Shown: in pieces, positions 9,823 to 28,329 of the stretch
Layout: every line of letters starts with the position of its first letter
Numbering within the stretch: position 1 is the stretch's first letter
NCBI GenBank assembly: GCA_903948045.1
Contig: CAJAXU010000571.1
Location: 1 to 38,744, forward strand
Origin: an uncultured beta proteobacterium
Lineage (GTDB): Bacteria > Pseudomonadota > Gammaproteobacteria > Burkholderiales > Burkholderiaceae_C
Length of the DNA: 38,744 bases
Direction of reading: 5' to 3'
The notes under the pieces: model-generated
What the model was told of the DNA's origin: nothing
The model's database searches: none
What the model saw: the letters and a program-made list of their open reading frames with translations, nothing else
Translations under genes and position numbers: made by a program

Positions 9823-10599
9823 GTGAGCGTGCTTTTTTCCGTGGCGGACTCGGTCGCAACGGTCACACTGAATCGGCCGGAGGCGATGAACGCCATTGAC
9901 GCGGCGACCATGCAGGAAATGGTCGCGCTGTGGGACACCCTGCGCCGTGACGATGCGATTCGGGTGATCATCCTGACGGGCGCGGGCAACCGGGCATTTT
10001 GCACCGGGATGGACCTCAAAAACACCATGCCGCCTGACGCCAGTTACGCGCAGGCCGCATTCGCCGGCCAGGGCGACCGGTCGTTTGTCAGTGCACTGGC
10101 GATTGACAAGCCCGTCGTCTGTGCCATCAACGGCTATGCGCTGGCCGGCGGGCTGGAGCTGGCCTTGGCCTGCGACATCCGGATCGCGGTGGAATCGGCC
10201 AGCTTTGGCCTGCCAGAAGTCAAGATCGGCAGCATACCGGGCGCCGGTGGCACCCAAAGACTGCCACGGATTGTCGGCATGTCCAACGCCATGCACATGC
10301 TGCTGACGGCCGAGCGCATCGACAGCGCCGAAGCTCTGCGCATCGGGTTGGTAAGCAAGGTGCTGCCGGCTGACGATTTATTGGACGCTGCCAGGGCAAT
10401 TGCCGCCAAAATTGCGGCCAATGGCCCACTGGCGGTCCGCGCGGTCAAGCAACTGGTGGTTAGCGGCGCGGACCTGCCCTTGTCGGCGGCTATCGATGCG
10501 GAGCGCATGGCCTGGGGCATTTTGCGCAACACCAAGGATCGCATTGAGGGGCGCCTGGCTTTCCAGCAGAAGCGCACGCCAGTGTTTCAGGGCAATTGA
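9823..10599 (+). CDS. Enoyl-CoA hydratase / crotonase-family protein
   Basis: A 258-residue cytoplasmic crotonase, the usual length for a monofunctional hydratase. The oxyanion-hole segments are AFCTGMDLK and GYALAGGLELALACDIR. Both glutamates needed for hydration of an enoyl-CoA are present (Glu112 in GGLELAL, Glu132 in GLPEVKIGSIPGAGGTQRL), which favours a true hydratase over an isomerase or dehalogenase. The GTG start is supported by CAGGAGAC eight bases upstream. It is the first gene of the operon running to 20983, and the following binding-protein gene starts 32 bases after its stop. The acyl chain it acts on is unknown. In this locus it would supply a 3-hydroxyacyl-CoA to the thiolase-fold/DUF35 proteins. 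Confidence 0.92.
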   Translation: MSVLFSVADSVATVTLNRPEAMNAIDAATMQEMVALWDTLRRDDAIRVIILTGAGNRAFCTGMDLKNTMPPDASYAQAAFAGQGDRSFVSALAIDKPVVCAINGYALAGGLELALACDIRIAVESASFGLPEVKIGSIPGAGGTQRLPRIVGMSNAMHMLLTAERIDSAEALRIGLVSKVLPADDLLDAARAIAAKIAANGPLAVRAVKQLVVSGADLPLSAAIDAERMAWGILRNTKDRIEGRLAFQQKRTPVFQGN

Positions 10600-10631
10600 C
10601 AAGCGCGAAGGCGCACACACAGGAGACAACA

Positions 10632-11672
10632 ATGGACGGACGTCGACGGATTTTGCGAAGTGCCATGGCAATGCTGAGCCTGGCCTGCCTGGCAGACTAC
10701 AGCCTGGCGATTGACCAGGCGCTGGTGGAGGCCGCCAAGAAAGAGGGCGAGGTCAACTGGTACACCTCATTGGTCGTCAATCAGGCCTCGCGGCCAATTG
10801 CGGCGGCCTTCGAGAAAGAGTACCCGGGCATCAAGGTTCGCGTGACCAGCGGCACCGCCAATGACCTGCTGCTCAAACTGATGGCTGAAGGCCAGGCCAA
10901 CTCGATGCGTGGCGACGTGTCACACGGGGGCTCGGCCTTTGGCTCGTTGTTGAAGTCCGGCCAGGTGGCGCAATACGTGCCAGTCGAGTCCAAGCGCTAC
11001 CCTGAACAGTACAAAGATCCCAGCGGTTTTGGCACCGGGCACTACATCAGCTTTTTGGTGCCCGCGATCAACACCGACCTGGTGAAAGAAAAAGACGAGC
11101 CGCGCAGCTGGAACGACCTGCTCGACCCTAAATGGGCCGGCAAAATGGCCTGGACCCAGCAGATGACCCAGGGCGGACCACCCGGCTTCATCGGCGCCAC
11201 GCTCTCGGCCCAGGGGGCAGACCAGGGCATGGCCTACCTGAAAAAGCTGTCCCAGCAAAAAATCGTCAACGTGCCCGCCAACCAACGCGTGGTGCTGGAC
11301 CAGGTGATTGCGGGGCAATACCCGCTGGCGCTGTCGACCTTCAGCCACCATTCGGAGCTGAGCCTAAAGAAGGGCGCGCCGGTGAAATGGCTCAAGTTTG
11401 AATACGTCACTGGCACGGTGGACCCGATCTTCATGATGAAAGGCGCGCCGCACCCCAATGCGGCTAAGCTGTTCATTGAGTATGTGCTGTCCAAAAAAGG
11501 GCAGGAAATCATTCAGGCGGCCGACTACATTCCTGCTGACCCCCAGGTGCCGGCGGCCATTCCCCGGCTCAAACCCGAGACGGGTGGCTTCAAGGCGGTG
11601 TTTCTGCCGCTGCAACAGGTCGAAGCTGATCTGCCTAAATGGGTCAAGATCTACGGTGAGTTGTTCAAGTGA
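10632..11672 (+). CDS. ABC transporter periplasmic binding protein (Fe3+/spermidine-type family)
   Basis: A 346-residue family 1 extracellular solute-binding protein. The N-terminus MDGRRRILRSAMAMLSLAC... is a signal peptide, with likely cleavage after YSLA. The mature start (VEAAKKEGEVNWYTSL) and the segments ITSGTANDLLLKLMAEGQ-like (here VTSGTANDLLLKLMAEGQ), PRSWNDLLDPKWAGKMAW and YPLALSTFSHHSE are typical of the family that includes FbpA and AfuA. The paired tyrosines that bind ferric iron in FbpA are not evident. Its position among catabolic genes makes an organic acid a better guess than iron. The start at 10632 has ACAGGAGACAAC just upstream. Its stop overlaps the permease GTG (GTGA). 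Confidence 0.88.
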   Translation: MDGRRRILRSAMAMLSLACLADYSLAIDQALVEAAKKEGEVNWYTSLVVNQASRPIAAAFEKEYPGIKVRVTSGTANDLLLKLMAEGQANSMRGDVSHGGSAFGSLLKSGQVAQYVPVESKRYPEQYKDPSGFGTGHYISFLVPAINTDLVKEKDEPRSWNDLLDPKWAGKMAWTQQMTQGGPPGFIGATLSAQGADQGMAYLKKLSQQKIVNVPANQRVVLDQVIAGQYPLALSTFSHHSELSLKKGAPVKWLKFEYVTGTVDPIFMMKGAPHPNAAKLFIEYVLSKKGQEIIQAADYIPADPQVPAAIPRLKPETGGFKAVFLPLQQVEADLPKWVKIYGELFK

Positions 11673-13429
11673 CCCAAACGCCAGTCTCTAGCCCCCAGGC
11701 TGCCTTGGCGCCGCGGCGCGCCAGTGGCAACTGGCGTGCTTCCGGCTGGTCGAGCTGGCTGCCGTCCAGCCTGCTGTCCCTGATTCTGGCGTGTCTGGTC
11801 TTGCCACCCATTGGCATACTGATCTTTCGCAGTCTCAAGGGCGAGCGGGGTAGCCCGACCGAAGGGCTGCTGACCCTTGAGAACTATGTGCGGCTGTTCG
11901 GCAACCCCAAGCTGTATGAAAGCACGGCCAACTCCCTGGTGTTTGCGGCCTGCGCTACCGTCATCTCGCTGCTGATTGGCGGCATCCTGGCCTGGGTGGT
12001 CGAGCGCAGCGACGCCCCGCTCAAAAAACTCGCCTTCTTCACCGCCATCGTGTCGCTGGGCACGCCCTACATTCTTTATGTGGGCGCCTGGCTGTTCTTG
12101 CTGGGCAGAGCCGGCCCGATCAACGACATCTACCGTGCGCTGAGTGGCACCAACGATTTGCTGATCAACGTCTATTCCCTGGGCGGGATGATTCTGGTGG
12201 AAGGGTTTTTGTGGACGCCGCTGGTGTTTCTGCTGCTGTCCACCACCTTTCGTCGGGCCAACGCTGAAATGGAAGAGGCCGCCCGTATGGCGGGGGCCTC
12301 GGTGGCCCAAACGGTGTGGCACATCTCGATGCGACTGGCGTGGCCGGCCATCCTGGGGCTGGGCATGTTTGTGTTCATCCGAAACGTAGAGGCGTTCGAT
12401 GTACCGGTGTTGATCGGCACGCCTAGCCGCATCAGCCTGTTGACGACCGACGTGTATGTGAGTTTGACGCACAACCCGCCGCAGCTGGGCTATGCCAGCG
12501 CTTTCTCGGCCGTGATGCTGCTGTTGGTGGCGGTGCTGCTGTACTTTTATGGCCGACTGTCGCGCCATGCCGACCGCTACGCCAGCGTGACTGGCAAGGG
12601 CTTCCGGCCCCGGCCGTTCCGGCTGGGCAAAGGGCGTTGGGTGGGCGGCGCCATCATCGTGCTGAACTTCGCCCTGGTGCTGGTGATTCCGCTGAGCGCC
12701 ATTCTCTGGAACTCGCTCACCCCCTATGTGCGGTCCTTCAGCCTGGCTGGGCTGGGCGCGCTGTCGCTTGAGCATTACCGGGCGGTGTTTCAGGAGGGCC
12801 ACTACCTCTCGCTGGCCTTGAATACCGTGATCGCCTCGGCGGGTGCGGCCACTGCCGCCCTGTTGCTGACGGTGGCGGCGGGCTGGCTGTCAGTGCGCCG
12901 CTGGCCGGGCAGCCAGTTGCTGGACCAGTTGACCAGCGTGCCCTTGGTGTTTCCTGGCATCGTGTTGGGTACGGCCCTGATTCAGGTGGCCCTCAACGCG
13001 CCTGTGCCGCTGTACGGGTCACTGTGGCTGATCATGATCGCGTTCCTGATCCGCTACATGCCCTACGGCATGCGGTATGCCTATGCCGGCGTGATGCAGA
13101 TTCACCGTGAGCTGGAAGAAGCGGCTGGCGTTGCGGGCGCCACCCAGCCGGGCTTGCTCCGCCGCATCGTGTTGCCCCTGCTGTCGCCGGCCATCATCTC
13201 AGGCTGGCTGTTCATCTTTTTGCTGGGTGCCAAAGAGCTGTCGCTGGCCATTTTGCTGGCGGGACCCGATTCACAAACCATGGCGGTGGCCATGTTTGAC
13301 CAGTGGTCAAACGGCCAAAGCGGCGAGGCATCGGCGCTCGGCATGGTCTGGACCTGTGTCATGACGCTGTTCGCGAGCCTGTTTTATTACGTGAGCGAGC
13401 ATCAGTCCAACCCGGAAAAATCAACATGA
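11669..13429 (+). CDS. ABC transporter permease, two fused MetI domains
   Basis: A 586-residue inner-membrane permease with about 12 transmembrane segments, built as two tandem binding-protein-dependent permease domains as in FbpB/AfuB-type importers. Each half has a cytoplasmic EAA loop that docks the ATPase: EMEEAARMAGASVAQTVWHI near 200 and ELEEAAGVAGATQPGLLRRI near 485. One protein therefore supplies both membrane halves. The N-terminal 35 residues are Ser/Arg-rich and cytoplasmic. The GTG start overlaps the binding-protein stop and the end overlaps the ATPase start (ATGA), so the three importer genes are translationally coupled. Confidence 0.94.
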   Translation: MTQTPVSSPQAALAPRRASGNWRASGWSSWLPSSLLSLILACLVLPPIGILIFRSLKGERGSPTEGLLTLENYVRLFGNPKLYESTANSLVFAACATVISLLIGGILAWVVERSDAPLKKLAFFTAIVSLGTPYILYVGAWLFLLGRAGPINDIYRALSGTNDLLINVYSLGGMILVEGFLWTPLVFLLLSTTFRRANAEMEEAARMAGASVAQTVWHISMRLAWPAILGLGMFVFIRNVEAFDVPVLIGTPSRISLLTTDVYVSLTHNPPQLGYASAFSAVMLLLVAVLLYFYGRLSRHADRYASVTGKGFRPRPFRLGKGRWVGGAIIVLNFALVLVIPLSAILWNSLTPYVRSFSLAGLGALSLEHYRAVFQEGHYLSLALNTVIASAGAATAALLLTVAAGWLSVRRWPGSQLLDQLTSVPLVFPGIVLGTALIQVALNAPVPLYGSLWLIMIAFLIRYMPYGMRYAYAGVMQIHRELEEAAGVAGATQPGLLRRIVLPLLSPAIISGWLFIFLLGAKELSLAILLAGPDSQTMAVAMFDQWSNGQSGEASALGMVWTCVMTLFASLFYYVSEHQSNPEKST

Positions 13430-14592
13430 AATCAGGTGACACGCTGGTCGTCCAGGGGCTGTCCAAGCAGTACGCCAGCACCAAACACGGTGTTGGTGCA
13501 GGCATCGACCAAATTTCCTTTCGGCTTGAAGGCGGGACCTTTTTCACCCTGTTGGGGCCTAGCGGTTGTGGCAAGACGACCACGCTGCGCTGCATTGCGG
13601 GGCTGGAACAGCCCGACCGGGGTGTTATCGAGCTTGGGAGCTTGGCGTTTTTCAATGCCGACACGGGCATCAACCGACCCTTGAATGAGCGCGACATTGG
13701 CATGGTGTTTCAGTCCTATGCCATCTGGCCGCACATGTCGGTGTTTGAAAACGTGGCGTTTCCGCTGAAGGTCGCCAAGGACCAGGCCTACTCACGTGAC
13801 GACATCAAACGCTTGGTGGGCGAGGCGCTCGACACCGTCAACCTGGGCGCTTACGGGGGGCGCTCACCGACCCAGATGTCCGGCGGCCAGCAGCAACGCG
13901 TGGCTTTGGCGCGTGCGATCGTCCGTCGCCCCCGCTTGCTGCTGCTCGATGAGCCGCTGAGCAACCTGGACGCCCTGCTGCGTGAGGACATGCGGCGAGA
14001 GCTAAAACGCCTGCAGCAGCAACTGGGCGTGACCACGGTATATGTGACCCATGACCAGGCCGAAGCGCTGGAGATGTCGGACACGATTGCAGTCTTGAAC
14101 CGCGGACGCCTGGTGCAGCTGGGCTCCGCGCAAGCCATCTACCACCGCCCACGCGACGCGTTTGTCGCCGGCTTCATCGGCTCCCCCAATCTGCTCAAGG
14201 GCGCACTGGCACACAGCGTCCAGGCCGACGCTCTGGCCGAAGTCCGGCTGGCGGACGGCCGCCTGCTGACGGTGCTGTTCCCCTATGCCGTCGATGGCCC
14301 CCAGCCGGTCATGGTCTCGGTGCGACCGGAGATCGTGGCGCTCAACAGCTTGGCCACGCCCTGTCAGCCCGGCATGAACCGCCTCCAGGTGGTGGTTACC
14401 GACTGTGCCTTTTTAGGGCACGCCTACCGCTACACCCTGCAAGTGGGGGCCCTGCGCCTGCAGGCCAGCGCTGCCGGCCAGGCACCTCTCGAAGTGGGCG
14501 CCGAGGTAGCGGCCGATTTTTCCTTTGAACACAGCTGTGGCCTAGTGGCCGACAGCACAGGTGCCGCCATCGCGAAGGTCGGCCATGATTGA
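13426..14592 (+). CDS. ABC transporter ATP-binding protein
   Basis: A 388-residue ATPase powering the importer. It has Walker A GPSGCGKTT, Q-loop VFQSYAIWPHMSVFENVAFP, signature MSGGQQQRVALARA, Walker B LLLLDEPLSNLD and H-loop YVTHDQAEALEMSD. A C-terminal TOBE-like region of about 130 residues (VSVRPEIVALN, LGHAYRYTLQVG) is typical of the Fe3+/spermidine/polyamine group. The ATG at 13426 overlaps the permease stop. The 3' end overlaps the CoA-transferase A start by 8 bp, which ties the importer to the catabolic genes in one transcript. Confidence 0.95.
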   Translation: MKSGDTLVVQGLSKQYASTKHGVGAGIDQISFRLEGGTFFTLLGPSGCGKTTTLRCIAGLEQPDRGVIELGSLAFFNADTGINRPLNERDIGMVFQSYAIWPHMSVFENVAFPLKVAKDQAYSRDDIKRLVGEALDTVNLGAYGGRSPTQMSGGQQQRVALARAIVRRPRLLLLDEPLSNLDALLREDMRRELKRLQQQLGVTTVYVTHDQAEALEMSDTIAVLNRGRLVQLGSAQAIYHRPRDAFVAGFIGSPNLLKGALAHSVQADALAEVRLADGRLLTVLFPYAVDGPQPVMVSVRPEIVALNSLATPCQPGMNRLQVVVTDCAFLGHAYRYTLQVGALRLQASAAGQAPLEVGAEVAADFSFEHSCGLVADSTGAAIAKVGHD

Positions 14593-15280
14593 CAAACGCG
14601 TCGCCGACGTGGCCGAGGCGCTGGCCGACGTCAAAGACGGCTCGGTCATCATGATCGGGGGCTTTGGCGCCGTGGGTCAACCCGATTATTTGATCAATGC
14701 CTTGGCCCAGCAGGGCGCTCGCGACCTGACGATCATTGCCAACAACGCCGGTTGGAGCCGGGACACCGGTATTCCACGGCTGATGGACCTGGGCCGCGTT
14801 CGCAAAATTGTCTGCAGCTTCCCCAAGGGCTCGCCGGCTTTTGACGAGCTGATGCGGGCCGGGAAAATTGAGCTCGAAATCGTGCCGCAGGGGACCCTGG
14901 CCGAGCGAATTCGGGCCGCAGGCGCCGGCATCCCGGCTTTTTTTACGCCAACCGGTGTCGGCACCCAAATGGCAGCCGGCAAGGAAGTCCGCACCTTCAA
15001 GGGGCGCGAGTACCTGATGGAAGAGGCCTTGCCAGCCGACGTCGCCTTGGTTGAGGCGTGGCGCGCTGACCGCTGGGCCAATTTAAGCTACCGCGGCAGC
15101 GGCCGCAACTTCAACCCGATCATGGCGATGGCCGCCAAACTGACGATTGCACAGGTACACGGCTTTGTGCCATTGGGTGAGATCGCCCCGGATGACGTGG
15201 TCACGCCTGGCATTTTTGTCCAGCGGGTGGTGCTGGTCAAACCCGCGCCGGCGGCTGTGGCCGCTGCCGGGGTGGCCTGA
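14585..15280 (+). CDS. Class I CoA-transferase, subunit A (3-oxoacid/3-oxoadipate CoA-transferase type)
   Basis: A 231-residue alpha subunit of a heteromeric class I CoA-transferase (SCOT/PcaI type). Typical segments are MIGGFGAVGQPDYLINAL, the glycine loop FTPTGVGTQMAAGKE, and the YRGSGRNFNPIMAMAAK region near the end. By family, it moves CoA from succinyl-CoA or acetyl-CoA onto a carboxylic or 3-oxo acid, together with the next gene. The ATG at 14585 lies inside the end of the ATPase gene and gives the family-standard N-terminus MIDKRVADVAEAL. The natural acid is not known, so I give no pcaI symbol. Confidence 0.92.
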   Translation: MIDKRVADVAEALADVKDGSVIMIGGFGAVGQPDYLINALAQQGARDLTIIANNAGWSRDTGIPRLMDLGRVRKIVCSFPKGSPAFDELMRAGKIELEIVPQGTLAERIRAAGAGIPAFFTPTGVGTQMAAGKEVRTFKGREYLMEEALPADVALVEAWRADRWANLSYRGSGRNFNPIMAMAAKLTIAQVHGFVPLGEIAPDDVVTPGIFVQRVVLVKPAPAAVAAAGVA

Positions 15281-15319
15281 GCGTCCCGCCCGTTTCCCAC
15301 CCAACCAAGGATTCACCGC

Positions 15320-15985
15320 ATGTCAGCCCCTGTTCCGCTCGACCGTATCGCCATGGCCACGCGGCTGGCCCAGGACATTCCCGAAGGCTGGTACGTGAAT
15401 CTGGGCTTGGGCTTGCCGACCGCGGTCGCCGACAAGGTGCCGCCCTCTCACGAGGTCGTGTTTCATTCCGAAAACGGCATCCTGGGCATGGGGCCTGCGC
15501 CCTTGCCTGATGCGGTGGACCCGTGGCTGGTCAACGCCAGCAAGAAGCCGGTGACCCTGCGCAGTGGCGCAGCCCTGTTCCATCAGGCAGACAGCTTTGC
15601 CATGATTCGGGGTGGCCACATCGACCTGTGCGTGCTGGGCGCGTTCGAAGTAGCCGGCAACGGCGACCTCGCCAACTGGACCATCAGCTCGGGGGATCGC
15701 ACCCCGGCGGTTGGTGGGGCGATGGATCTGGCTGCCGGCGCCAAACGCTTGTGGGTGCTGATGGAGCACACCACCAAAGAAGGCGTACCCAGGCTGGTCA
15801 AGCAATGTCGCTACCCGCTCACGGCGCAGCGCTGCGTGTCGCGGGTTTATACCAACTGGGCCGTGCTGGACGTGACGCCGAGCGGCTTTCTAGTGCGTGA
15901 CATGGTGCCCGGCATGACGCTGGCGGCCTTGCAGGCGCTGACCGAAGCGCCGCTGTATCAAGATGCCAGCCCAACCAAGGATTGA
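15320..15985 (+). CDS. Class I CoA-transferase, subunit B
   Basis: A 221-residue beta subunit, partner of the preceding gene. It holds the catalytic glutamate that forms the glutamyl-CoA thioester: Glu51 in VVFHSENGILGMG. Other family segments are YVNLGLGLPTAVADKVP, MIRGGHIDLCVLGAFEV, DLANWTISSG and VGGAMDLAAGAKRLWVLMEH. Length is normal for PcaJ/ScoB-type subunits. It starts 39 bases after subunit A, and the following hydrolase gene begins 2 bases after its stop. Confidence 0.93.
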   Translation: MSAPVPLDRIAMATRLAQDIPEGWYVNLGLGLPTAVADKVPPSHEVVFHSENGILGMGPAPLPDAVDPWLVNASKKPVTLRSGAALFHQADSFAMIRGGHIDLCVLGAFEVAGNGDLANWTISSGDRTPAVGGAMDLAAGAKRLWVLMEHTTKEGVPRLVKQCRYPLTAQRCVSRVYTNWAVLDVTPSGFLVRDMVPGMTLAALQALTEAPLYQDASPTKD

Positions 15986-15987
15986 TC

Positions 15988-16851
15988 ATGAAATTGGCCA
16001 GTTATCTTCTCGACGGCAAGCCCGTGTTTGGCGCACTCGCAGGCGATGGCCTGGTGACCCTGAGCGGCCGCCTGCCAACGCCCTGCCTGACCTTGCGTGA
16101 GGCGCTCAGTGCGGACCTGCTGGGTGAGATTCGGCAGTACATGGCCAACCGCACCGCTGACGTGGCGGTGGCCGACGTCGTTTTTCTGCCGGTGATCCCA
16201 GACCCGACCCAGGTTTTTGCCGCGGGCGTCAACTACCGGGACCATGTGGAAGAAACTGGCCGCAAGGTCCGTACCCTGGACGATGGCCCTTCATTTTTCT
16301 TGCGCCTGCGCAGCTCACTGGTGGGTCATCAGCAGCCCGTCATCCGTCCCAAAGTGTCGAACCGGCTCGATTACGAAGGCGAACTTGCGCTGGTGGTTGG
16401 GCGCGGCGGGCGTCACATCCCCGAAGACCAGGCGCTGTCCTGCTTAGCCGGCTACACCTGCTTCATGGACGGCAGCGTGCGTGACTACCAAAAGCATTCG
16501 GTGTCGATCGGCAAAAACTTTATCTCCTCAGGGCCCTTGGGCCCTTGGCTTGTCACCACCGACGACATCCCTGACCCGGAGCAGCTCTCGCTCACGACCC
16601 GCCTCAACGGCGAGACCATGCAGCAGGGGCGGCTGAATCAGCTGATTTTTTCCATCCCTTACCTGGTCTCGTACCTGTCCAGAATAACCCCGCTGCTGCC
16701 GGGCGACATCATTGCAACCGGTACCCCGGCGGGAGTCGGGCGGGACCGCAGCCCCGCCGTCTGGATGAAGCCCGGCGACCGCATCGAGGTGGAGATCAGC
16801 GGCATTGGCGTGCTCTCCAACCCCATCGTTGCCGAAGACCACGAGGCTTGA
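15988..16851 (+). CDS. Fumarylacetoacetate hydrolase family protein
   Basis: A 287-residue protein of the FAH superfamily, which includes fumarylpyruvate hydrolases, 2-keto-4-pentenoate hydratases and acylpyruvases. Visible motifs are AAGVNYRDHVEETG, the metal-ligand glutamates in DYEGELALVVG, an Asp in CFMDGSVRDYQK (aligned with the family's NDVSARD), SSGPLGPWLVT and ATGTPAGVG. These support a Mg-dependent C-C hydrolase, hydratase or decarboxylase of a 2-oxo or 1,3-dioxo acid. The ATG at 15988 is taken; a TTG two codons upstream overlaps the previous stop. Sequence alone does not separate the possible reactions. Confidence 0.9.
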   Translation: MKLASYLLDGKPVFGALAGDGLVTLSGRLPTPCLTLREALSADLLGEIRQYMANRTADVAVADVVFLPVIPDPTQVFAAGVNYRDHVEETGRKVRTLDDGPSFFLRLRSSLVGHQQPVIRPKVSNRLDYEGELALVVGRGGRHIPEDQALSCLAGYTCFMDGSVRDYQKHSVSIGKNFISSGPLGPWLVTTDDIPDPEQLSLTTRLNGETMQQGRLNQLIFSIPYLVSYLSRITPLLPGDIIATGTPAGVGRDRSPAVWMKPGDRIEVEISGIGVLSNPIVAEDHEA

Positions 16852-16902
16852 TTTAAGCCGTCCGTTCAGGGCATAGCCGCCCCATCATCAGGAGTTGTCA
16901 TC

Positions 16903-19682: not shown

Positions 19683-20090
19683 ATGGCAGAACGCAAGCCC
19701 CCCGACCCGGTCAGCGCGCCAGAAACCCAGGCCTTTTGGGATGCCGCTGCTCAAGGCCGTTTTCTGGTTAAAGCGTGCCAGGCCTGCGGCAAGGTGCACT
19801 GGTACCCGCGCACGATGTGCCCTTTTTGTGCCAGCCTCGATACCGTTTGGCGTGAGGGGTCCGGGCTGGGCACGATTTACACCTTCAGCATCATGCGTCG
19901 CGCGGGCGACCCCTTCGTGATGGCCTATGTCCGGCTGGATGAAGGCCCGCTGATGATGACGAATATTGTCGATGGCGACCCATCGCAGCTCAGGATCGGC
20001 GACCCGGTCCGGCTGGTCTGGCGCACCAGTGACAATGGGTTTGCCATACCGTTTTTTCGCCCTATTGGGCCCTCTGATCCGGAGCAGTGA
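19683..20090 (+). CDS. DUF35 zinc-ribbon / OB-fold protein 2, partner of thiolase-fold protein 2
   Basis: A 135-residue DUF35 protein with the same layout as the first: an N-terminal helix (SAPETQAFWDAAAQGRFLVK), a zinc ribbon with C32, C35, C46 and C49, and an OB-fold (GTIYTFSIMRRAGDPFVMAYV, RIGDPVRLVW). It is little alike the first copy outside the cysteines, so the two pairs are probably old duplicates and not a recent one. It starts 4 bases after thiolase-fold gene 2, and its stop overlaps the amidohydrolase start by one base (TGATG). Confidence 0.9.
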   Translation: MAERKPPDPVSAPETQAFWDAAAQGRFLVKACQACGKVHWYPRTMCPFCASLDTVWREGSGLGTIYTFSIMRRAGDPFVMAYVRLDEGPLMMTNIVDGDPSQLRIGDPVRLVWRTSDNGFAIPFFRPIGPSDPEQ

Positions 20091-20983: not shown

Positions 20984-21018
20984 ACCGCGAGCGCCAGACG
21001 GGGCGGATCAACGTCGCC

Positions 21019-21924: not shown

Positions 21925-22043
21925 TGGTTGACAGGTCTCGCTAAGAAGAAGGAGGTTGCAGACGACTCAACAGCCCATGAGAAAAGGTGGCTTGACCGCA
22001 GGGCGTTGGTGCCCGAGCATCTTACCCCTAACGGAGACAAATT
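21925..22043. promoter_or_regulatory. LysR / TPP-enzyme divergent control region
   Basis: A 119-bp divergent spacer where LysR sites are expected. On the plus strand TTGACC (21992-21997) could be a -35, followed by a small inverted repeat GGGC...GCCC (22001-22014), but no good -10 is seen at 17 bases. ACGGAGACAAATT just before 22044 serves as ribosome binding site. I see no convincing long LysR palindrome by eye. Confidence 0.4.
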
Positions 22044-23585
22044 ATGAATGGCGCGGAGAGCTTGGTGAAGACGCTGGTGGCGGGCGGCGTGGAGGTGTGC
22101 TTTGCCAACCCAGGCACCTCCGAAATGCATTTTGTGGCCGCCCTCGACAAAGTGCCCGGCATTCGCTGCGTGCTGTGTTTGTTTGAAGGGGTGGCCACGG
22201 GCGCAGCCGATGGCTACGCTCGCATGGCCGACAAACCCGCCGCCACCCTGCTGCACCTGGGCCCTGGCCTGGCCAACGGCCTGGCCAATTTGCACAATGC
22301 GCGGCGTGCCCGTACCCCCATCGTCAACATTGTGGGTGATCACGCCACCTACCATCTGCAATACGACTCGCCGTTGACGTCCGACATCGAGGCCCTGGCG
22401 CGGCCCATGTCGTCATGGGTCAGAACTTCCAAAGACGCCCGTATGGTGGGCGCGGATGCGGCTGACGCTATCAGCGTGGCCAAATCGGCTAAAGGCGAGA
22501 TTGCTACCCTGATTTTGCCTGCCAATACCGCCTGGACCGAGGGAGGCGTGGTGGCGGTGGTCCCGCCACCGATGGCGGCCAAGCCGGTGCCTGATGAAGT
22601 CATCCGCGAGGTGGCCGAGGCATTGCAGGCGGGCAGCGCCATGCTGCTGGTCGGGGGTAAGGCCTTGCGCCACCGGGCCTTGCAACTGGCGGCGGCGATT
22701 GGCCTCAAGACGGGTCAACAGGTGATGGCGATTAGCCGCAACCCCCGCATTGAACGTGGCGCCGGCCGGGTGACGATCGACCGGATTCCCAACCCGGTTG
22801 AAAAATCAATCGATAGGTTCAATGCGCTGCGCACCCTGATCCTGGTCGATGAAGATGCCCCGGTGGCATTTTTCGCGCATCCTGGCAAGCCGGGCAAGCT
22901 CACTTCGGCCACCTGCAACATCCTGACCTTGGCGGCCGCGAGCGATGACATCGTAGGTGCGCTGGAAGCGCTGGCCGAGCGCTTGGGCGCCCGGGTCAGC
23001 GATGTACCCCGGCAGGCGTTGACTCGACCGGACATCCCCACCGGCGCCCTGAATCTGGAGAATATTGGCCGGGCGCTGGGTGCGCTGCTGCCAGAGCATG
23101 CCATCGTGTGCGACGAGTCCATCACCAGCGGGCGCACCTTTTTTGCCTCGACCCAGGGTGCGCCCCCGCACGATTGGCTGCAATTGACCGGTGGTGCCAT
23201 TGGTCTCGGCATGCCGATGGCGGTTGGCGCCGCGGTCGCCTGCCCGACGCGCAAGGTGATCAATTTGCAGGCGGACGGCAGCGGCATGTACACCTTGCAG
23301 GCACTTTGGACCCAGGCGCGCGAAAAGCTGAATGTCTTGACTGTGATCTGGGCCAACCGCTCCTACAAAATCCTGCACAATGAATTTTCCAATGTCGGTG
23401 CTGGCCAGCCGGGGGACAAGGCCAGCAGCATGCTGAGCCTGGACAATCCGGCGCTGGACTGGGTCAGCCTGGCCAAGGGCATGGGCGTCGAGGGCGTGCG
23501 TGTGACCACGATGGCCGAACTGACAAGTGCCTTGCAGGCGGGCGTGCAACAGACCGGCCCTTTCTTGATCGAGGTCAGTCTGTAG
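22044..23585 (+). CDS. TPP-dependent enzyme, acetolactate-synthase / benzoylformate-decarboxylase-like
   Basis: A 513-residue thiamine-diphosphate enzyme with the usual PYR, middle and PP domains. The activating glutamate is Glu48 in LCLFEGVATGAADGYARM. The cofactor Mg/pyrophosphate motif is QADGSGMYTLQALWTQ followed by WANRSYKIL, with ADG in place of the usual GDG. It matches a group often annotated as acetolactate synthase large subunit but found outside branched-chain synthesis operons. No small subunit is present, and neighbours are catabolic, so a 2-oxoacid decarboxylase or carboligase role is more likely. The ATG has ACGGAGACAA upstream. The GST-like gene begins directly after its TAG with no gap. 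Confidence 0.9.
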   Translation: MNGAESLVKTLVAGGVEVCFANPGTSEMHFVAALDKVPGIRCVLCLFEGVATGAADGYARMADKPAATLLHLGPGLANGLANLHNARRARTPIVNIVGDHATYHLQYDSPLTSDIEALARPMSSWVRTSKDARMVGADAADAISVAKSAKGEIATLILPANTAWTEGGVVAVVPPPMAAKPVPDEVIREVAEALQAGSAMLLVGGKALRHRALQLAAAIGLKTGQQVMAISRNPRIERGAGRVTIDRIPNPVEKSIDRFNALRTLILVDEDAPVAFFAHPGKPGKLTSATCNILTLAAASDDIVGALEALAERLGARVSDVPRQALTRPDIPTGALNLENIGRALGALLPEHAIVCDESITSGRTFFASTQGAPPHDWLQLTGGAIGLGMPMAVGAAVACPTRKVINLQADGSGMYTLQALWTQAREKLNVLTVIWANRSYKILHNEFSNVGAGQPGDKASSMLSLDNPALDWVSLAKGMGVEGVRVTTMAELTSALQAGVQQTGPFLIEVSL

Positions 23586-24203
23586 ATGAAGCTCTATTGG
23601 TCGAGCCGCTCTCCTTTTGCACGCAAGGTGATGCTGGCGGCCCATGAGCTGGGCCTGGCGCAGCAGATCGCGTTGGTTCCCACCACCGTGAGTGTGCTGC
23701 AAGCCAATCCGGTGCTGGCCCAACTCAACCCGCTGGGGCAAGTGCCCACCCTGGTCCTTGACAGCGGCCTGGTCATACCCGACTCGCTGTTGATCTGTGA
23801 GTATCTGGACAGCATTGCGTCGAAGCCGGGCCTGATTCCGCCGGGCCCCGTGCGGCGCTATGAAGCGCTGGCCCGCCATGCGATGGGGCAGGGCATGATG
23901 GAAACCCTGGTTAAGTTGTTCGGTGAACGAAAACGGTTGGATGACCCCTTGCAGCCCACTTATGTGGCCGCCTTCGGGCAAAAATTTCATCGGGCGGTCA
24001 CGGCGATGAACGCCGTCTGTGGCGACCGAGCCGGCCAGGCGGTCGACATCGGCGACCTGGCGTTGGCCTGTGCGCTGGCTTATGCAGATTTCCGCTTTCC
24101 AGAGCTCAGTTGGCGCACCGGCCAGCCCGCCTTGAACGACTGGTACGCGTCCTTCGCGCAGCGTGCATCCATGCGCGCGACAGAGTTTGTCGTGCCTGTC
24201 TAA
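23586..24203 (+). CDS. Glutathione S-transferase family protein
   Basis: A 205-residue GST-fold protein. The N-terminal thioredoxin-like domain starts MKLYWSSRSPFARKVMLAAH, has the cis-Pro segment NPLGQVPTLVLD and the glutathione-binding IPDSLLICEYLD. A helical C-terminal domain follows (YEALARHAMGQGMMETLVKL). The start is immediately adjacent to the stop of the TPP-enzyme gene, so the two are co-translated. In a catabolic setting it may act as a glutathione-dependent isomerase (maleylacetoacetate isomerase type), lyase or dehalogenase, but no subgroup can be fixed by eye. Confidence 0.88.
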   Translation: MKLYWSSRSPFARKVMLAAHELGLAQQIALVPTTVSVLQANPVLAQLNPLGQVPTLVLDSGLVIPDSLLICEYLDSIASKPGLIPPGPVRRYEALARHAMGQGMMETLVKLFGERKRLDDPLQPTYVAAFGQKFHRAVTAMNAVCGDRAGQAVDIGDLALACALAYADFRFPELSWRTGQPALNDWYASFAQRASMRATEFVVPV

Positions 24204-24215
24204 CCCGTCGCCGCC

Positions 24216-25070
24216 ATGCCCTGGATCGATGTCAATGGGGTGTCCCTGCGCTACGAGGTGTCGGGACGCGGTCAGCAAGACCTGGTGCTGCTGCACGAAA
24301 TGGGCGGTTGTTTGGAGAGCTGGGACCGGGTGGTCCCGCACCTGACCCAGCAGTTCCGGGTGATTCGTTTTGACATGCGCGGCGCCGGCATGTCTGAAAA
24401 GAAGCCGACGCCGTTGGCCATGGCGGACCTGGCCGACGATGTGTCTGGTCTGCTGACGCACTTGGGGGTCAGTGGTCCGGTGGCGCTGGCGGGTTGTGCC
24501 GTTGGTGCTGCATTAGCCCTGTATGTGGCGGCGCGCCTGCCGCAGCGGGTGAGCGGTGTTGTGGCCATGGCGCCGGCCACCGGGCTGGCGCCAGACAAAA
24601 AACCCGAGGTGCTGGCGCTGGCGGCGCGCTTTGAAAACGAAGGCCTGCGCGATCGCATCGTGCAGCGGTTCCCGCAGTCTTACCCGCCCCATTATTTTGA
24701 AGACTCGGCCGAACGCCTGCAGGTGCTGGGGCGGCTACTCAGCAGCGACCCGCGTGCCTATGCCGCGATGTACCGCATGCTGTGTGCCTTGGACATGCAG
24801 GCCGATTTGCCGCGTATCGGCTGCCCGGTGCTGGTGCTGGCCGGGCAGCACGACACCACCCGGCCGCCCGCGAGCGTGGTCAAAGTGGCAGAGCTCATTC
24901 CAAACGCCCGGTTTCAGGTGATTGACAGCGGCCACGTGATGCCGATCCTGACGCCGGTAGCGGTGGCGCAGGCGATTCTGGGTTTCCTGTCAGGGCCGCT
25001 GCCTAGCGGTCGCGCCACAGCGCACTGCCCGGCACAAACAGCGCATCAATATCGGGTGCGCGGCGGATAA
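24216..25070 (+). CDS. Alpha/beta-hydrolase-fold protein with Ala at the nucleophile position
   Basis: A 284-residue protein that looks like 3-oxoadipate enol-lactonase (PcaD) and related hydrolases: VNGVSLRYEVSGRG, VLLHEMGG (oxyanion region), RFDMRGAGMS. The nucleophile elbow, normally G-x-S-x-G, reads G93-C-A-V-G97, so Ala95 stands where Ser should be and Cys94 is next to it. The acid (Asp213 in LAGQHDTTRPP) and His240 (IDSGHVMPI) are kept. The codons GGT TGT GCC GTT GGT leave no doubt about the residues. It may be inactive, use another nucleophile, or catalyse a non-hydrolytic reaction. The last 68 bp overlap the 3' end of the convergent gene. Confidence 0.88.
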   Translation: MPWIDVNGVSLRYEVSGRGQQDLVLLHEMGGCLESWDRVVPHLTQQFRVIRFDMRGAGMSEKKPTPLAMADLADDVSGLLTHLGVSGPVALAGCAVGAALALYVAARLPQRVSGVVAMAPATGLAPDKKPEVLALAARFENEGLRDRIVQRFPQSYPPHYFEDSAERLQVLGRLLSSDPRAYAAMYRMLCALDMQADLPRIGCPVLVLAGQHDTTRPPASVVKVAELIPNARFQVIDSGHVMPILTPVAVAQAILGFLSGPLPSGRATAHCPAQTAHQYRVRGG

Positions 25071-25947
25071 AGCCCTGCTCCAGAAGATAGCGCGACAGCG
25101 TCGTGATGTTGCGGCGGTTCAGCTCGGTCAGGCCGTGCTGGTAGGGGTCAGGTCCGCCCGGGGACGAGAAGTGATCCCACGCCCGATCGGAAAACGGCAG
25201 CAGGCTGGTGCTCAGGCGCCGCTTCAAAGCCGTCTGCTTGGTCTGGACGTAATGCTCAAACACCCGCTGGCTGGTCTGCGGATCACCGGCGATGCGGGCA
25301 TGCAGCACCACTGTGTGCATGATGGGGAACAAGCCGGTGGTGCTGAAATACCGCCGCTCGATGGCCTCCGTGTCCGGGGCCAGAAAGCGCAGCCGGCGCT
25401 GGTCGGGTGGCAGTTGCTGGTCTCGCGGTCGGCCGGCCATGAGCGCATCGATCTTGCCATCCAGCAGCAGGGTCTCCAGGTCGTCGGTGGTGGCGGTGGC
25501 GCGTACGCCTCCTGGTGCCGCAAACCTGGGGTTGCCCCCGGTGACCCAATCGATGCTTTTGCAGTCCAGGCCGACGTCATCCGACAAGTGGCCGCGCGTC
25601 CACACCGCCGTGGTCATGGCGAAATCGGACACGCCGACCCGGCAGCCGGCCAAATCGCGCAGATCGTGCAGCGCGCTGCCCACAGGCACAAATACCGAGG
25701 CGTTGCGGAAGGCGCGGCTCGGAAACACGGGGATCGCGGTCAGGCGATCATCACCGCGGTCTTTGAGCATGATGTAGTTGGCCAGCGAGTACTCTGCCAC
25801 GTCAAAGGCGTCGCCGCTGAGCACGCGCCGGCTGAGTTCGCCCAGGGCTGTGATTGTGTAACGCAAACGCGGCGTCGCCTCGTGAGGGGTGCCAAAGCCC
25901 AAGGTGTGTTCGTAGTCGCCGCCGCAGACCTCAATGTCCTGTGTCAT
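25003..25947 (-). CDS. 4,5-dihydroxyphthalate decarboxylase-like protein
   Basis: A 314-residue protein related to 4,5-dihydroxyphthalate decarboxylase (Pht5 type), whose fold resembles periplasmic binding proteins. Family-like segments are DAFDVAEYSLANYIMLKDRG, IPVFPSRAFRNASVFV, LAGCRVGVSDFAMTTAVWTRGHL and LFPIMHTVVLH. No signal peptide is present (MTQDIEVCGGDYEH), which fits a cytoplasmic enzyme and not a transport receptor. It is the last gene of the minus-strand operon, 13 bases after an aldehyde-dehydrogenase remnant, and overlaps the convergent hydrolase gene by 68 bp. The substrate could be a phthalate-type or other dicarboxylate; the name is by family only. Confidence 0.85.
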   Translation of the reverse strand: MTQDIEVCGGDYEHTLGFGTPHEATPRLRYTITALGELSRRVLSGDAFDVAEYSLANYIMLKDRGDDRLTAIPVFPSRAFRNASVFVPVGSALHDLRDLAGCRVGVSDFAMTTAVWTRGHLSDDVGLDCKSIDWVTGGNPRFAAPGGVRATATTDDLETLLLDGKIDALMAGRPRDQQLPPDQRRLRFLAPDTEAIERRYFSTTGLFPIMHTVVLHARIAGDPQTSQRVFEHYVQTKQTALKRRLSTSLLPFSDRAWDHFSSPGGPDPYQHGLTELNRRNITTLSRYLLEQGFIRRAPDIDALFVPGSALWRDR

Positions 25948-25960
25948 GGTGTGTACTGCT

Positions 25961-26047
25961 TCAAACTTGGGTTCGGCTGATCAGCGTCTGGCCGTCGTTG
26001 GCGTCGCGCCATTGGCCGGCGATCAACAGTTGAACTTTGGGGTACAT
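25961..26047 (-). pseudogene. Remnant: first ~23 codons of an aldehyde dehydrogenase
   Basis: On the minus strand an ATG preceded by CACAGGAACACCG opens a 28-codon frame, MYPKVQLLIAGQWRDANDGQ followed by TLISRTQV and TGA. The first 23 residues look like the N-terminus of succinate-semialdehyde-type aldehyde dehydrogenases (xLFIDGQWxxxxxGxTxxVxNP), which are about 480 residues long. The match stops after GQTL, where INPATGE-type sequence is expected, and nothing else of the enzyme is present. A start signal plus truncated reading frame suggests a large deletion that removed the gene between the CoA-transferase and decarboxylase-like genes. Confidence 0.6.
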
Positions 26048-26077
26048 CGGTGTTCCTGTGTGCTGCATTGGGCTGCG

Positions 26078-27232
26078 TTAGATCACGCCATGGTCGCGCA
26101 GGGTGTCAATCTCGTCCTGGGTCAGCCGCCCGACGCGCCGCAGCACCTCGTCAGAATCCGCGCCGACCGAGGGCGCTTCGCGCGAGATGGTCATCGGCTG
26201 CCGCTCGAACTGCTGGGGAAAGCCTTTGACGACGGCGCCCTGGGGCGACGTTTGCAAAGCCTGGTCCCAGACCCGTCCCTGTTGCTGCCACACCTGGGCA
26301 CCGCTCAGAACAGCGGCTGCCGCAATGTCGTGCGCCAGCAAGTCCTCGACAGCGGCGCCGGCCGGTCGGGAGGTGATCCAATCGCGCAGCCCCGCCTCCA
26401 GCGCTGCGACTGCAACCGCCGGCGCTCGGGCATCGACCAGTTGGGCCAAGGCGACGCGTTGGCCCGCTTCGACCGTCACGGCCACCCACGTGCCGTCTTG
26501 GGCGGGAAAGCAGGCCTGAATCAGGTTGGGCGCCTGGGCGTTGCCCTCACGCCCGGGCGCCACTCCGTCGCTGGCGGCAACAAAGGCCTCGCCAGATAGA
26601 AAGCTGGTGAGCTCGCGCTGTGACATATCCAGGTGCGCGCCACCCTGACCGTTCTGGCGCGCGTGCCAGGCCGTGACCACCATCGACGAGGCAAACAGCC
26701 CAACCACCTGGTCGGGGTAGTTGAGATCCACGCCGGTGATGGCGGGCACATCGCCCGCATAACCGGTGGTCCAGGCCAGCCCTGCCACGGCTTCCAGGGT
26801 CGAACCGTAGGAGACATACAGTGCGTCCGGACCGGTCTCTCCCTGGCTCGAGATCGACGCCAGAATGATGTTGGGGTTGACAGCCTTGAGTGCGGGGTAG
26901 TCCAGCCCGAGCTTTTGCATGACACCGCGCCGGAAGTTCTCCACCACCACGTCGCTGTTGGCGACCAGGCGCAAAAAAGTGGCTCTGCCCAAGGCTTGTT
27001 TCAGATCCAGGCTCAGGCCCAATTTGTTCCGGTTTGTCGCCTTGAAAAAGGGCGGCAGGTCGTCCGGGGCATCTGCGGGTTTGTCGGACAGCCAGCGGCG
27101 AAACGGATCTCGGTACGAGGCAGACTCGATCTTGATGACCTCGGCGCCAAAATCTGCCAGGCAGGCTGCCGTTGCGGCGCCCGCGGTGATGATGCCCAGG
27201 TCGAGCACCCGGCAACCCGCCAGCGCGTTCAT
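26078..27232 (-). CDS. Class III CoA-transferase (CaiB/BaiF family), likely catalytic subunit
   Basis: A 384-residue class III CoA-transferase. It opens with LAGCRVLDLGIITAGAATAACLADFGAEVIKIE and has NRNKLGLSLDLK, DVVVENFRRGVMQKLGLDY and ASISSQGETGP. The catalytic Asp expected at about 169 in formyl-CoA transferase corresponds to Asp174 in NYPDQVVGLFAS. C-terminal segments include LLAHDIAAAAVLSGAQVW and RVGRLTQDEIDTLRDHGVI. The ATG at 27232 overlaps the stop of the upstream paralogue (ATGA), so the two are coupled and probably form a heteromer like BbsEF. The open frame extending 61 codons upstream is a shadow of that paralogue. Confidence 0.92.
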   Translation of the reverse strand: MNALAGCRVLDLGIITAGAATAACLADFGAEVIKIESASYRDPFRRWLSDKPADAPDDLPPFFKATNRNKLGLSLDLKQALGRATFLRLVANSDVVVENFRRGVMQKLGLDYPALKAVNPNIILASISSQGETGPDALYVSYGSTLEAVAGLAWTTGYAGDVPAITGVDLNYPDQVVGLFASSMVVTAWHARQNGQGGAHLDMSQRELTSFLSGEAFVAASDGVAPGREGNAQAPNLIQACFPAQDGTWVAVTVEAGQRVALAQLVDARAPAVAVAALEAGLRDWITSRPAGAAVEDLLAHDIAAAAVLSGAQVWQQQGRVWDQALQTSPQGAVVKGFPQQFERQPMTISREAPSVGADSDEVLRRVGRLTQDEIDTLRDHGVI

Positions 27233-28329
27233 GCCCGTGGCTCCGGCGCAGGGCTCGACGCAGGGGCGCCTGCGCTGGCGGCTGGGAAGGCCTGTCCGCT
27301 CCAGAGGACGGGCAGGCGTGGCATCAGCAGTGGCGCTTGCGGCGCGTTGGCCTGCCGGGAAAAGAAAGACCGTGCCCGGTTTTGGGGGTCGTCCTCCAGC
27401 TCGATCGGGCTCCATACCGGCCCCAGCGGCAAGCGTTTGGCCAACGCCAAGGCTTTCAACTCTTGCCGTGTGTAGCGCAAGAAGACGCCCTCGACAATGC
27501 TCGCCACCGTGCGGGCGTCCCGCCGCCGTTCGGCCCGGTCGTTGAAGCGTACCTCCGACAGCCGGGGGTCATTGACGAAGTCGCGCAAGACTGGCCAATC
27601 CGCTTCCAGAAAAACCAGCGCAATCCACCCGTCGGCGCAGCGCACGACTTGCCATTCGGCGTCGCGGCCCAACCGTGCCCGACCGGCGGCGGACCAGGAT
27701 GCCATGGCCACGACCTTCCAGTTCAGCCAGACCGCCACATCGGCCAGCGTCACCCGGACCACCTCGGCAGCAGCCCCCGGCTGGCGTGCGCACAGGGCGG
27801 CTACCGAGCCAGAGTAGGCGGCGAGCCCGCAGGCGTAAGCCAGTTGGTGGCCGCCCATGCGCAAGGGTTCGCGGTCCGGGTCGCCCACCAGGTCGAGCAG
27901 GCCACTCAGCGCCATCACGGTGAACTCCGTGGCAGCGCAGGCACTGGCGTCGCTGGTGACTGGAAACATGGACAGGACAGTGCGGATGCTGGTCTGGGCC
28001 AAGCCCTCCAACTGAACGAGCGCCTGGGCGTCACACAGCACGACATCGGGTGCTGCGCCCAAGGCCATGAGTGCTGAGACGGCGTTGCGGTCAGGCCCGA
28101 ACGCCTGGTAAGTCTTGCCCTGATCGAGAAAAGTGGACAAAGCGTTCGACGAGCCGATACGCGGCTCGACCGCTTGCACCGGATCGTCGTCGCGCGAGCC
28201 CAGTTTGACGACGCTGGCGCCCAGGCCCGCCGCGATGCGCCCGGCGAATGAAATGGCCAGTCGCAGTGACAGGGGGCAAGTGGCCGAGGGATACTCCGCA
28301 ATTCGAATGCCGTGTAGGGGACCGCTCAT
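27229..28329 (-). CDS. Class III CoA-transferase paralogue lacking the catalytic Asp
   Basis: A 366-residue CaiB/BaiF-family protein, shorter and more divergent than its neighbour. The family N-terminus begins MSGPLHGIRIAEYPSATCPL and continues with GRIAAGLGASVVKLGSRDDD. By eye alignment, the stretch holding the catalytic Asp reads GGHQLAYACGLAAYSG, with Ala164 in place of Asp. It is therefore likely a non-catalytic or structural subunit. The ATG at 28329 is chosen because it matches the family start, although no ribosome binding site is evident; an in-frame ATG at 28404 would add 25 unlike residues. It is the first gene of the minus-strand operon. Confidence 0.85.
   Translation of the reverse strand: MSGPLHGIRIAEYPSATCPLSLRLAISFAGRIAAGLGASVVKLGSRDDDPVQAVEPRIGSSNALSTFLDQGKTYQAFGPDRNAVSALMALGAAPDVVLCDAQALVQLEGLAQTSIRTVLSMFPVTSDASACAATEFTVMALSGLLDLVGDPDREPLRMGGHQLAYACGLAAYSGSVAALCARQPGAAAEVVRVTLADVAVWLNWKVVAMASWSAAGRARLGRDAEWQVVRCADGWIALVFLEADWPVLRDFVNDPRLSEVRFNDRAERRRDARTVASIVEGVFLRYTRQELKALALAKRLPLGPVWSPIELEDDPQNRARSFFSRQANAPQAPLLMPRLPVLWSGQAFPAASAGAPASSPAPEPRA

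Follow-up and report, generated by a model that had tools for sequence, protein, structure and literature searches.

The 38,744-nucleotide stretch analysed here (the window; contig CAJAXU010000571.1 of assembly GCA_903948045.1, from an uncultured beta proteobacterium) carries at 9823-28413 a cluster of 19 intact genes in four runs, which on balance we take to be a catabolic module that has spread horizontally and degrades an imported polar carboxylic acid, acting through activation to coenzyme A (CoA) esters and retro-aldol cleavage by the thiolase-fold protein THL1 with its DUF35-domain partner DUF35a. Put more simply, this set of about twenty genes, common to scattered proteobacteria, would probably let them use an organic acid as food by way of CoA and a thiolase-fold aldolase, an enzyme type familiar from the breakdown of steroids. 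The chemistry of DUF35 aldolases and of CoA-transferases is of a known kind; their conserved combination in a non-steroid setting is undescribed. An earlier note on this DNA, made from the letters alone, could match the genes to no known pathway, and the literature, covered mostly as titles and abstract openings, likewise gave no description of the gene set or of a pathway containing it.

According to PMC12329534, the aldolase TcLtp2 uses Tyr294 (in a YDHF motif) as base and Tyr344 as acid, replacement of its YDHF His, part of the oxyanion hole, costs 14-fold in catalytic efficiency, and the bile-acid aldolase CtSal uses Tyr302 and Cys304 and has Gly at the position of the thiolase nucleophile Cys. 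THL1 Tyr290 and Tyr340 align with Ltp2 Tyr294 and Tyr344, and both positions are Tyr in the window protein and in all 81 relatives aligned with it at 48% identity or more and 85% coverage. (A scan of GTDB genomes with THL1 found 152 stretches encoding a relative, of which the best 80 loci were kept; the 81 comprise 79 of these, the edge-cut L086 being dropped, and two plasmid loci.) The column of the nucleophile Cys is a gap in 81 of 81, and the motif around the first Tyr is YDSF, with Ser at the Ltp2 His and Sal Cys position, again in 81 of 81. The second thiolase-fold protein, THL2, was aligned with 18 relatives (one from each of the 17 loci with a related cluster described below and a paralogue from the window's own genome), and all 18 show the pattern Tyr, Ser, His, Gly, the Gly lying at the nucleophile position. 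Neither the thiolase nucleophile Cys nor the His of the thiolase HDxF motif, replaced by Tyr, is present in THL1, THL2 or any of these 81 and 18 relatives; the fragment of BbsB in this alignment stops short of the nucleophile Cys. A classical thiolase mechanism was rejected for both proteins on the ground that their active-site columns lack the thiolase residues: judged by these columns it is unlikely for THL1 and for THL2. THL1 probably works by a retro-aldol mechanism like that of Ltp2.

The predicted THL1 model (pLDDT 88.5, built from 39 sequences) has as its nearest matches in a Foldseek search of the PDB first 4u4e (a putative thiolase by title) and then Ltp2 (6ok1) and Sal (9myr), all ranking above characterised thiolases, but the superfamily fold is common to all these matches and the ranking alone is no proof of function. 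Both DUF35a and DUF35b of the window carry the C4 zinc motif C-x2-C-x10-C-x2-C, and a DUF35 match lies within 6 kb of THL1 at all 81 loci, at 72 of them within 700 bases. With the TcLtp2-ChsH2(DUF35) complex (PDB 6ok1) THL1 thus has in common the fold, the YDxF Tyr, the second Tyr, the lack of the nucleophile Cys and a DUF35 partner that is a protein of its own and carries the C4 zinc motif; it differs in its overall sequence (31% identity in the Foldseek alignment), in the Ser that stands for the YDHF His, and in its setting, where a crotonase and class III CoA-transferases are encoded nearby and the window's genome has no KshA_C match. With CtSal-CtShy(DUF35) (PDB 9myr; PMC12329534) the fold and the base Tyr are shared and THL2 has in addition the Gly at the nucleophile position, but the essential YDCY Cys is Ser in both THL1 and THL2, and the DUF35 domain is encoded by a gene of its own rather than fused to a MaoC hydratase. 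Among the plasmid matches listed, those relatives that have an annotation bear the names acetyl-CoA acetyltransferase, lipid-transfer protein or thiolase family protein.

The earlier note had treated both thiolase-fold/DUF35 pairs as Ltp2-like complexes; this is well supported for THL1 with its Tyr pair but doubtful for THL2, which is without the second Tyr. A retro-aldol reading of THL2 is accordingly weaker (Tyr plus His, the Cys lost), also because THL2 runs with class I CoA-transferase genes elsewhere. In two genomes of about 2 Mb from the same order (loci L118 and L119) the order CTA-CTB-THL2-DUF35b, the first two being the class I subunits, is found on one strand, with a THL2 66% identical to that of the window and an isocitrate-lyase-like gene in the run in place of THL1 or of any class III CoA-transferase, thiamine pyrophosphate (TPP) enzyme or glutathione S-transferase (GST) label, none of which occurs within the roughly 20 kb examined. 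On our reading of the sequence the run follows that isocitrate-lyase-like gene, and it would make a small natural test case for THL2. The structure 4u4e, from Sphaerobacter thermophilus, shares with THL2 both YDSF and the His at the second position (a 298-bit match); we know of no function for it. The window's own genome also has a second THL2/DUF35 pair (G000:C24:23325-24527; loci L002 and L130; 67-69% identity), which lies, by seed matches, near two genes like those of acyl-CoA dehydrogenases and near aldehyde-dehydrogenase-like and class III CoA-transferase-like genes, a more ordinary CoA context.

A Pfam and NCBIfam scan of the 19 genes found every gene type named in the earlier note, and in its place. 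The interval given there, 9823-28329, needs a different end, the last gene stopping at 28413, and to the list should be added that the class III CoA-transferases are two and that a YibF-like GST and a PcaD-like hydrolase also belong. As that note had it, none of the 19 genes matched a family of oxygenases, of acyl-CoA dehydrogenases or of 3-hydroxyacyl-CoA dehydrogenases. The longest run, on the plus strand, reads ECH, SBP, permease, ATPase, CTA, CTB, FAH, THL1, DUF35a, THL2, DUF35b, AMH; the others are LysR (minus), then TPP enzyme, GST and ABH (plus), and CT3b, CT3a and the decarboxylase-like gene (minus):

9823-10599, plus: ECH, crotonase-fold enoyl-CoA hydratase (PF00378, 3.8e-74; both presumed catalytic Glu)
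10635-11672, plus: SBP, solute-binding protein of an ATP-binding cassette (ABC) importer of the Fe3+/2-aminoethylphosphonate type (PF13343, 1.4e-22)
11669-13429, plus: two-domain ABC permease (PF00528, two stretches)
13420-14592, plus: ABC ATP-binding protein (PF00005 and PF08402)
14585-15280, plus: CTA, class I CoA-transferase subunit A (TIGR02429, 321 bits, cut-off 128.5)
15320-15985, plus: CTB, class I CoA-transferase subunit B (TIGR02428, 276.5 bits, cut-off 243.6; SENG motif)
15988-16851, plus: FAH-family hydrolase/decarboxylase (PF01557, 4.4e-66)
16903-18063, plus: THL1, thiolase-fold protein, candidate Ltp2-type retro-aldolase (PF22691; active-site Tyr pair; predicted fold)
18073-18519, plus: DUF35a, zinc-ribbon/OB partner of THL1 (PF01796 and PF12172; C4 motif)
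18503-19678, plus: THL2, second thiolase-fold protein, PRK08142 family (699.8 bits, cut-off 462)
19683-20090, plus: DUF35b, partner of THL2 (PF01796 and PF12172; C4 motif)
20090-20983, plus: AMH, LigI-like, lactonase-like hydrolase of the amidohydrolase superfamily (PF04909, 3.2e-43)
21019-21924, minus: LysR-family regulator, GcvA-like (PF03466 and PF00126)
22044-23585, plus: TPP enzyme, benzoylformate-decarboxylase-like (PRK07586, 772.9 bits, cut-off 363)
23586-24203, plus: GST, YibF-like (PF13409; YibF chain 1.6e-30)
24216-25070, plus: ABH, PcaD-like alpha/beta hydrolase (PF00561; PcaDC model 154 bits, below its cut-off of 390)
25003-25947, minus: protein like 4,5-dihydroxyphthalate decarboxylase or a binding protein (no Pfam or NCBIfam match; distant plasmid matches)
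25982-26047, minus: remnant of an aldehyde dehydrogenase N-terminus (22 residues, 59% to a full-length enzyme, E 4e-4)
26078-27235, minus: CT3a, class III CoA-transferase with the conserved Asp (PF02515, 2.3e-70)
27229-28413, minus: CT3b, class III CoA-transferase homologue that lacks this Asp and is probably a partner subunit (PF02515, 1.4e-31)

The search for conserved clusters that the earlier note had proposed was fruitful: 17 of the best 80 THL1 loci carry most of the set in reshuffled order, and a set that recurs in 17 other loci is not there by chance. By record title and our own classification the carriers are 16 Alphaproteobacteria and one unplaced proteobacterium, among them Chelatococcus asaccharovorans DSM 6462, Rhizobium sp. 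CF080 and Primorskyibacter flagellatus CGMCC 1.12664. THL1, DUF35a, CT3a, CT3b, LysR and THL2 are found in all 17, and DUF35b in 16 within the distance limit of 21 kb, the missing one lying just beyond it. GST follows with 16, ABH with 14, SBP with 13, ECH, CTA, CTB and the permease with 12 each, and the ATPase with 8. Seven of the loci were extended to 40-53 kb, and absences in the ten others mean little. The extended seven all have the TPP enzyme and a PrpB-like protein of the phosphoenolpyruvate (PEP) mutase family; six have an aldehyde dehydrogenase, five the FAH enzyme and four the decarboxylase-like gene, and in five of the seven maps every open reading frame of at least 120 residues kept inside the cluster is labelled. 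Three acyl-CoA dehydrogenase seeds, one 3-hydroxyacyl-CoA dehydrogenase seed and one short-chain dehydrogenase/reductase (SDR) seed matched nothing in the 17 relatives, although SDRs are diverse and a single seed could miss some. Nor is there an oxygenase among the labelled genes of the relatives, where no seed search was aimed at oxygenases.

Among the carriers, AMH and a dienelactone-hydrolase-family protein (DLH) exclude each other, with AMH in six relatives, DLH in ten, neither in one and both in none; we infer that the two do the same ester or lactone hydrolysis, though the loci are related and do not represent 16 independent events. The accessory genes differ from relative to relative (GlcD-like FAD oxidases in four, IlvD-like proteins in four, MmgE/PrpD proteins in five and, in one, the L-2-hydroxyglutarate oxidase LhgO at 567 bits against a cut-off of 299) and yet point the same way, these being families that make or use 2-oxo, 2-hydroxy or di- and tricarboxylic acids. 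A gene resembling those of D-2-hydroxyacid dehydrogenases, as we read the sequence, recurs in the extended stretches of three of the genomes (G201, G206 and G211).

We read the cluster as having spread horizontally because of the THL1 tree and because no other family genome searched has a THL1 match. In the tree the window THL1 groups with those of Caulobacter, Rhizobium and Primorskyibacter (100/97), and the window together with the 17 cluster carriers makes up 18 of the 22 rows in the surrounding clade (81/82); the carrier label changes three times on the tree, against 16.6 in shuffles. The tree has one very long outgroup and its bootstrap has not settled. At E 1e-60, THL1 is absent from the 199 other family genomes, only the window's own of the 200 matching. 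THL2-type proteins are commoner: at E 1e-130 they match in 37 of 399 genomes from the order, a figure that includes the window's own.

Turning to CoA activation, the Asp column of CT3a holds Asp in 16 of the 17 relatives and Glu in one. CT3b lacks this family Asp in all 17, and it has Arg where three aligned solved chains have Asp. The conserved Asp of class III CoA-transferases would have a catalytic role here, and the best solved matches of CT3a and CT3b include both subunits of benzylsuccinate CoA-transferase; the two would seem to form a heteromer in which only one subunit is catalytic. As for the class I pair, it scores above the cut-offs of the NCBIfam subfamily models given above and has the SENG motif. 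In an alignment with E. coli PaaF, both of the Glu residues that we take to be catalytic are kept in the ECH of the window and in 12 of 12 cluster orthologues, which bears out the hydratase of the earlier note. On the import side, the nearest solved chains to SBP are iron-binding proteins (best E 6e-13).

AMH has 2-pyrone-4,6-dicarboxylate hydrolase as its nearest solved chain (E 6e-45) and scores 204.6 bits with the 4-sulfomuconolactone hydrolase model, below the cut-off of 500. The nearest solved chains to the TPP enzyme are benzoylformate decarboxylases. A homologue of this enzyme on plasmid 1 of Paracoccus denitrificans PD1222 (L131) is accompanied by ABC transporter genes and three CoA-transferase genes, as well as by a 2-hydroxyacid dehydrogenase, an aldolase and an FGGY kinase, making another unexplained acid or sugar-acid cluster. 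The 'decarboxylase-like' gene of the earlier note is indeed there, but its product has no Pfam or NCBIfam match, and of the 12 plasmid records listed out of 193 that match it, one is annotated as 4,5-dihydroxyphthalate decarboxylase (30% identity), six as ABC or PhnD-type substrate-binding proteins and one as hypothetical, and four are without annotation; its model (mean pLDDT 51.7, from four sequences) is too poor for fold comparison.

The lost aldehyde dehydrogenase of that note is likewise real. The remnant, 22 N-terminal residues between CT3a and the decarboxylase-like gene, is 59% identical to the full-length enzyme that occupies the same place in Caulobacter sp. S45 (L014), itself close to succinic and alpha-ketoglutaric semialdehyde dehydrogenases, though it reaches none of the curated cut-offs shown. 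Another contig of the window's genome encodes a homologue 63% identical to the Caulobacter enzyme that might stand in for the lost one; it adjoins, by our reading of the open reading frames, a GMC-type oxidoreductase and a sulfatase. The loss had been fitted to an aldehyde released by retro-aldol cleavage. In all six relatives having both genes, however, the TPP enzyme and the aldehyde dehydrogenase are on the same strand with starts within about 3 kb, so that the aldehyde may come instead from decarboxylation of a 2-oxo acid. A step from 2-oxo acid through aldehyde to carboxylate would account for the aldehyde no less well than retro-aldol cleavage, which with a tertiary alcohol would yield a ketone and not an aldehyde.

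Sequence and fold show the gene content, its conservation, the active-site residues and the lack of a dehydrogenase match in the cluster maps; from these we infer all the reactions, their order and the kind of substrate. The ABC importer would bring the acid in, and lactonase- or esterase-like hydrolases (AMH here, DLH in others; ABH) would open it. The TPP enzyme may decarboxylate a 2-oxo acid formed on the way, and the resulting aldehyde would be oxidised to a carboxylate by an aldehyde dehydrogenase of the succinic or alpha-ketoglutaric semialdehyde type (full-length in six relatives, a remnant here). The presumably heteromeric class III and the class I CoA-transferases would form CoA esters without ATP, the crotonase would hydrate an enoyl-CoA to a 3-hydroxyacyl-CoA, and THL1-DUF35a would break this down in a retro-aldol reaction to a shorter acyl-CoA and a carbonyl compound, for which reason no hydroxyacyl-CoA dehydrogenase would be needed. 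THL2-DUF35b may make a second non-thiolytic carbon-carbon cut. The substrate may be a non-aromatic or already ring-opened carboxylic acid, as the earlier note supposed. More tentatively, and with somewhat less than even confidence, we would extend the scheme to a widespread, undescribed non-steroid pathway for CoA esters of small hydroxylated acids, perhaps lactone-derived and polycarboxylic, with a class III CoA-transferase of one catalytic and one non-catalytic subunit and two DUF35-dependent lyases in series, THL1 using the Ltp2-type Tyr/Tyr pair and THL2 a new Tyr/His set (YDSF plus NHP).

Several observations weigh against the retro-aldol module. The Ser of YDSF replaces both the YDHF His of Ltp2 and the essential YDCY Cys of Sal, and THL2 has His rather than Tyr at the second Ltp2 catalytic position in 18 of 18. 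In the runs of L118 and L119, where THL2 stands with class I CoA-transferase genes, a textbook route would continue with thiolysis. ECH is found in only 12 of the 17 relatives, not being seen in the available stretches of L022, L024, L030, L032 and L038, and outside the cluster group a crotonase match within 6 kb is lacking at 44 of the 64 THL1 loci (contig ends cut some of these), so hydration may not be the general partner of THL1. The PrpB-like gene of all seven extended relatives is missing from the window cluster, the best match in the window's genome being one of 34% on another contig. These PrpB-like proteins are mutually distant: only four of 18 genomes match the Rhizobium one at E 1e-60, itself counted, and one of the four matches is on a contig other than that of the genome's TPP matches. 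Finally, the loss of the aldehyde dehydrogenase could be a peculiarity of the assembly or the strain, because the genome is 82% complete and in 741 contigs.

A different reading, fairly unlikely in our view, sees in THL1 and the class III CoA-transferase a unit that cleaves tertiary 3-hydroxy acids (citramalate-, homocitrate- or 3-hydroxy-3-methylglutarate-like): the transferase would make the CoA ester directly, THL1 would act on this ester as a lyase, giving acetyl- or propionyl-CoA together with a 2-oxo or keto acid, and the crotonase would serve some other step. Ltp2 itself acts on a tertiary alcohol, and the THL1 neighbourhoods lean in this direction, 67 of the 81 loci having a class III CoA-transferase within 6 kb (52 on the same strand within 2 kb), against 22 with ECH, eight with an acyl-CoA dehydrogenase and one with a 3-hydroxyacyl-CoA dehydrogenase; outside the cluster group, 34 of 64 loci have the transferase without a match to any of these three within the same distance. 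Some relatives have, besides, genes for 2-hydroxy or 2-oxo dicarboxylates (LhgO in one, GlcD-like in four, PrpB-like in seven). However, 28 of the 81 loci end at a contig edge within 6 kb, and the control stretch 6-10 kb away also scores high, with the transferase in nine of 27 loci as against 20 of 27 within 4 kb, so that the link is a modest excess and part of it a catabolic-island effect; moreover, ECH is kept in 12 of the 17 cluster relatives. The crotonase-free loci suggest that THL1 may also act on directly activated 3-hydroxy acids.

It seems improbable that the cluster is instead a bbs-type variant of CoA-dependent beta-oxidation with its 3-hydroxyacyl-CoA dehydrogenase elsewhere, the thiolase-fold/DUF35 pairs being true thiolases or acyltransferases like BbsAB and PhlABC. 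The gene logic is the same, for the bbs operon of anaerobic toluene/benzylsuccinate degradation (BbsEF, BbsG, BbsH, BbsCD, BbsAB; PMC10818641) shares a paired class III CoA-transferase, a hydratase and a thiolase-fold/zinc-finger complex; BbsB and PhlC are structural relatives of the thiolase-fold proteins, and the CTA-CTB-THL2-DUF35b runs of the two small genomes resemble a 3-oxoacid route. But the cluster has no counterpart of BbsG or BbsCD and adds a TPP enzyme, a GST, hydrolases and an ABC importer, and against true thiolases stand both the lost nucleophile Cys and HDxF His in 81 of 81 THL1 and 18 of 18 THL2 relatives and the lack of any acyl- or 3-hydroxyacyl-CoA dehydrogenase match in the cluster and its 17 relatives.

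Equally hard to credit is an aromatic pathway (that of phthalate, of 2-pyrone-4,6-dicarboxylate or of protocatechuate by 4,5-cleavage) of which the cluster would be the lower part, the oxygenases being encoded elsewhere. The gene resembling 4,5-dihydroxyphthalate decarboxylase, the likeness of AMH to 2-pyrone-4,6-dicarboxylate hydrolase, the PcaD-like hydrolase and the FAH enzyme would all suit such a pathway; yet the first of these is in only four of the seven extended relatives, ten of the 17 relatives have DLH and no AMH, oxygenases are missing from the window cluster and from the labelled genes of the relatives (with the restriction on seeds given above), and to our knowledge the known lower pathways of these three compounds use no DUF35 aldolases. 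Degradation of steroid or bile-acid side chains, as for Ltp2 and Sal, is very improbable even though 4u4e, Ltp2 and Sal are the solved structures closest to THL1 and THL2, and was rejected on a search with KshA_C (3-ketosteroid 9-alpha-hydroxylase), which matched nothing in the 82% complete genome of the window and only three of the 18 genomes at E 0.001 or better, two of them barely over the cut-off; no steroid-degradation gene was recognised in the cluster.

For proteins annotated as thiolases but devoid of thiolase residues, the cluster provides a setting that is conserved, unrelated to steroids and defined in its set of genes. If the retro-aldol reading of THL1 is true, naming such proteins thiolases is systematically wrong, and there is one more route by which CoA esters are shortened without a hydroxyacyl dehydrogenase; if the reading with two lyases is true as well, DUF35 aldolases are a general tool of bacterial acid catabolism and not a steroid speciality.

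The flanks of the cluster hold thiamine genes, a cytosine/thiamine-type permease, an EamA transporter, Hsp20 and a LonB-like protein. The block at 2824-9026 (minus), with a thiamine monophosphate synthase family gene, ThiG, a DAO-family oxidoreductase, a phosphonate-type binding protein and the cytosine/thiamine-type permease, directly adjoins this cluster with its TPP enzyme. Also outside the cluster are an SDR at 37901-38698 and a flavin reductase at 30359-30874 (minus), which adjoins the EamA transporter and has HpaC-, HsaB- and FerA-type matches below cut-off; no oxygenase partner for it was identified among the window genes scanned. Scans of the window found no tRNA and no direct repeat family, one weak inverted pair, 15 terminator-like sites (15.2 in shuffles) and seven promoter-like sites (3.4 in shuffles, standard deviation 1.8). 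The G+C content in most 2-kb steps from 10 to 24 kb is 62-65%, compared with 66-69% at 1-9 kb and 65-69% to the right of 28 kb.

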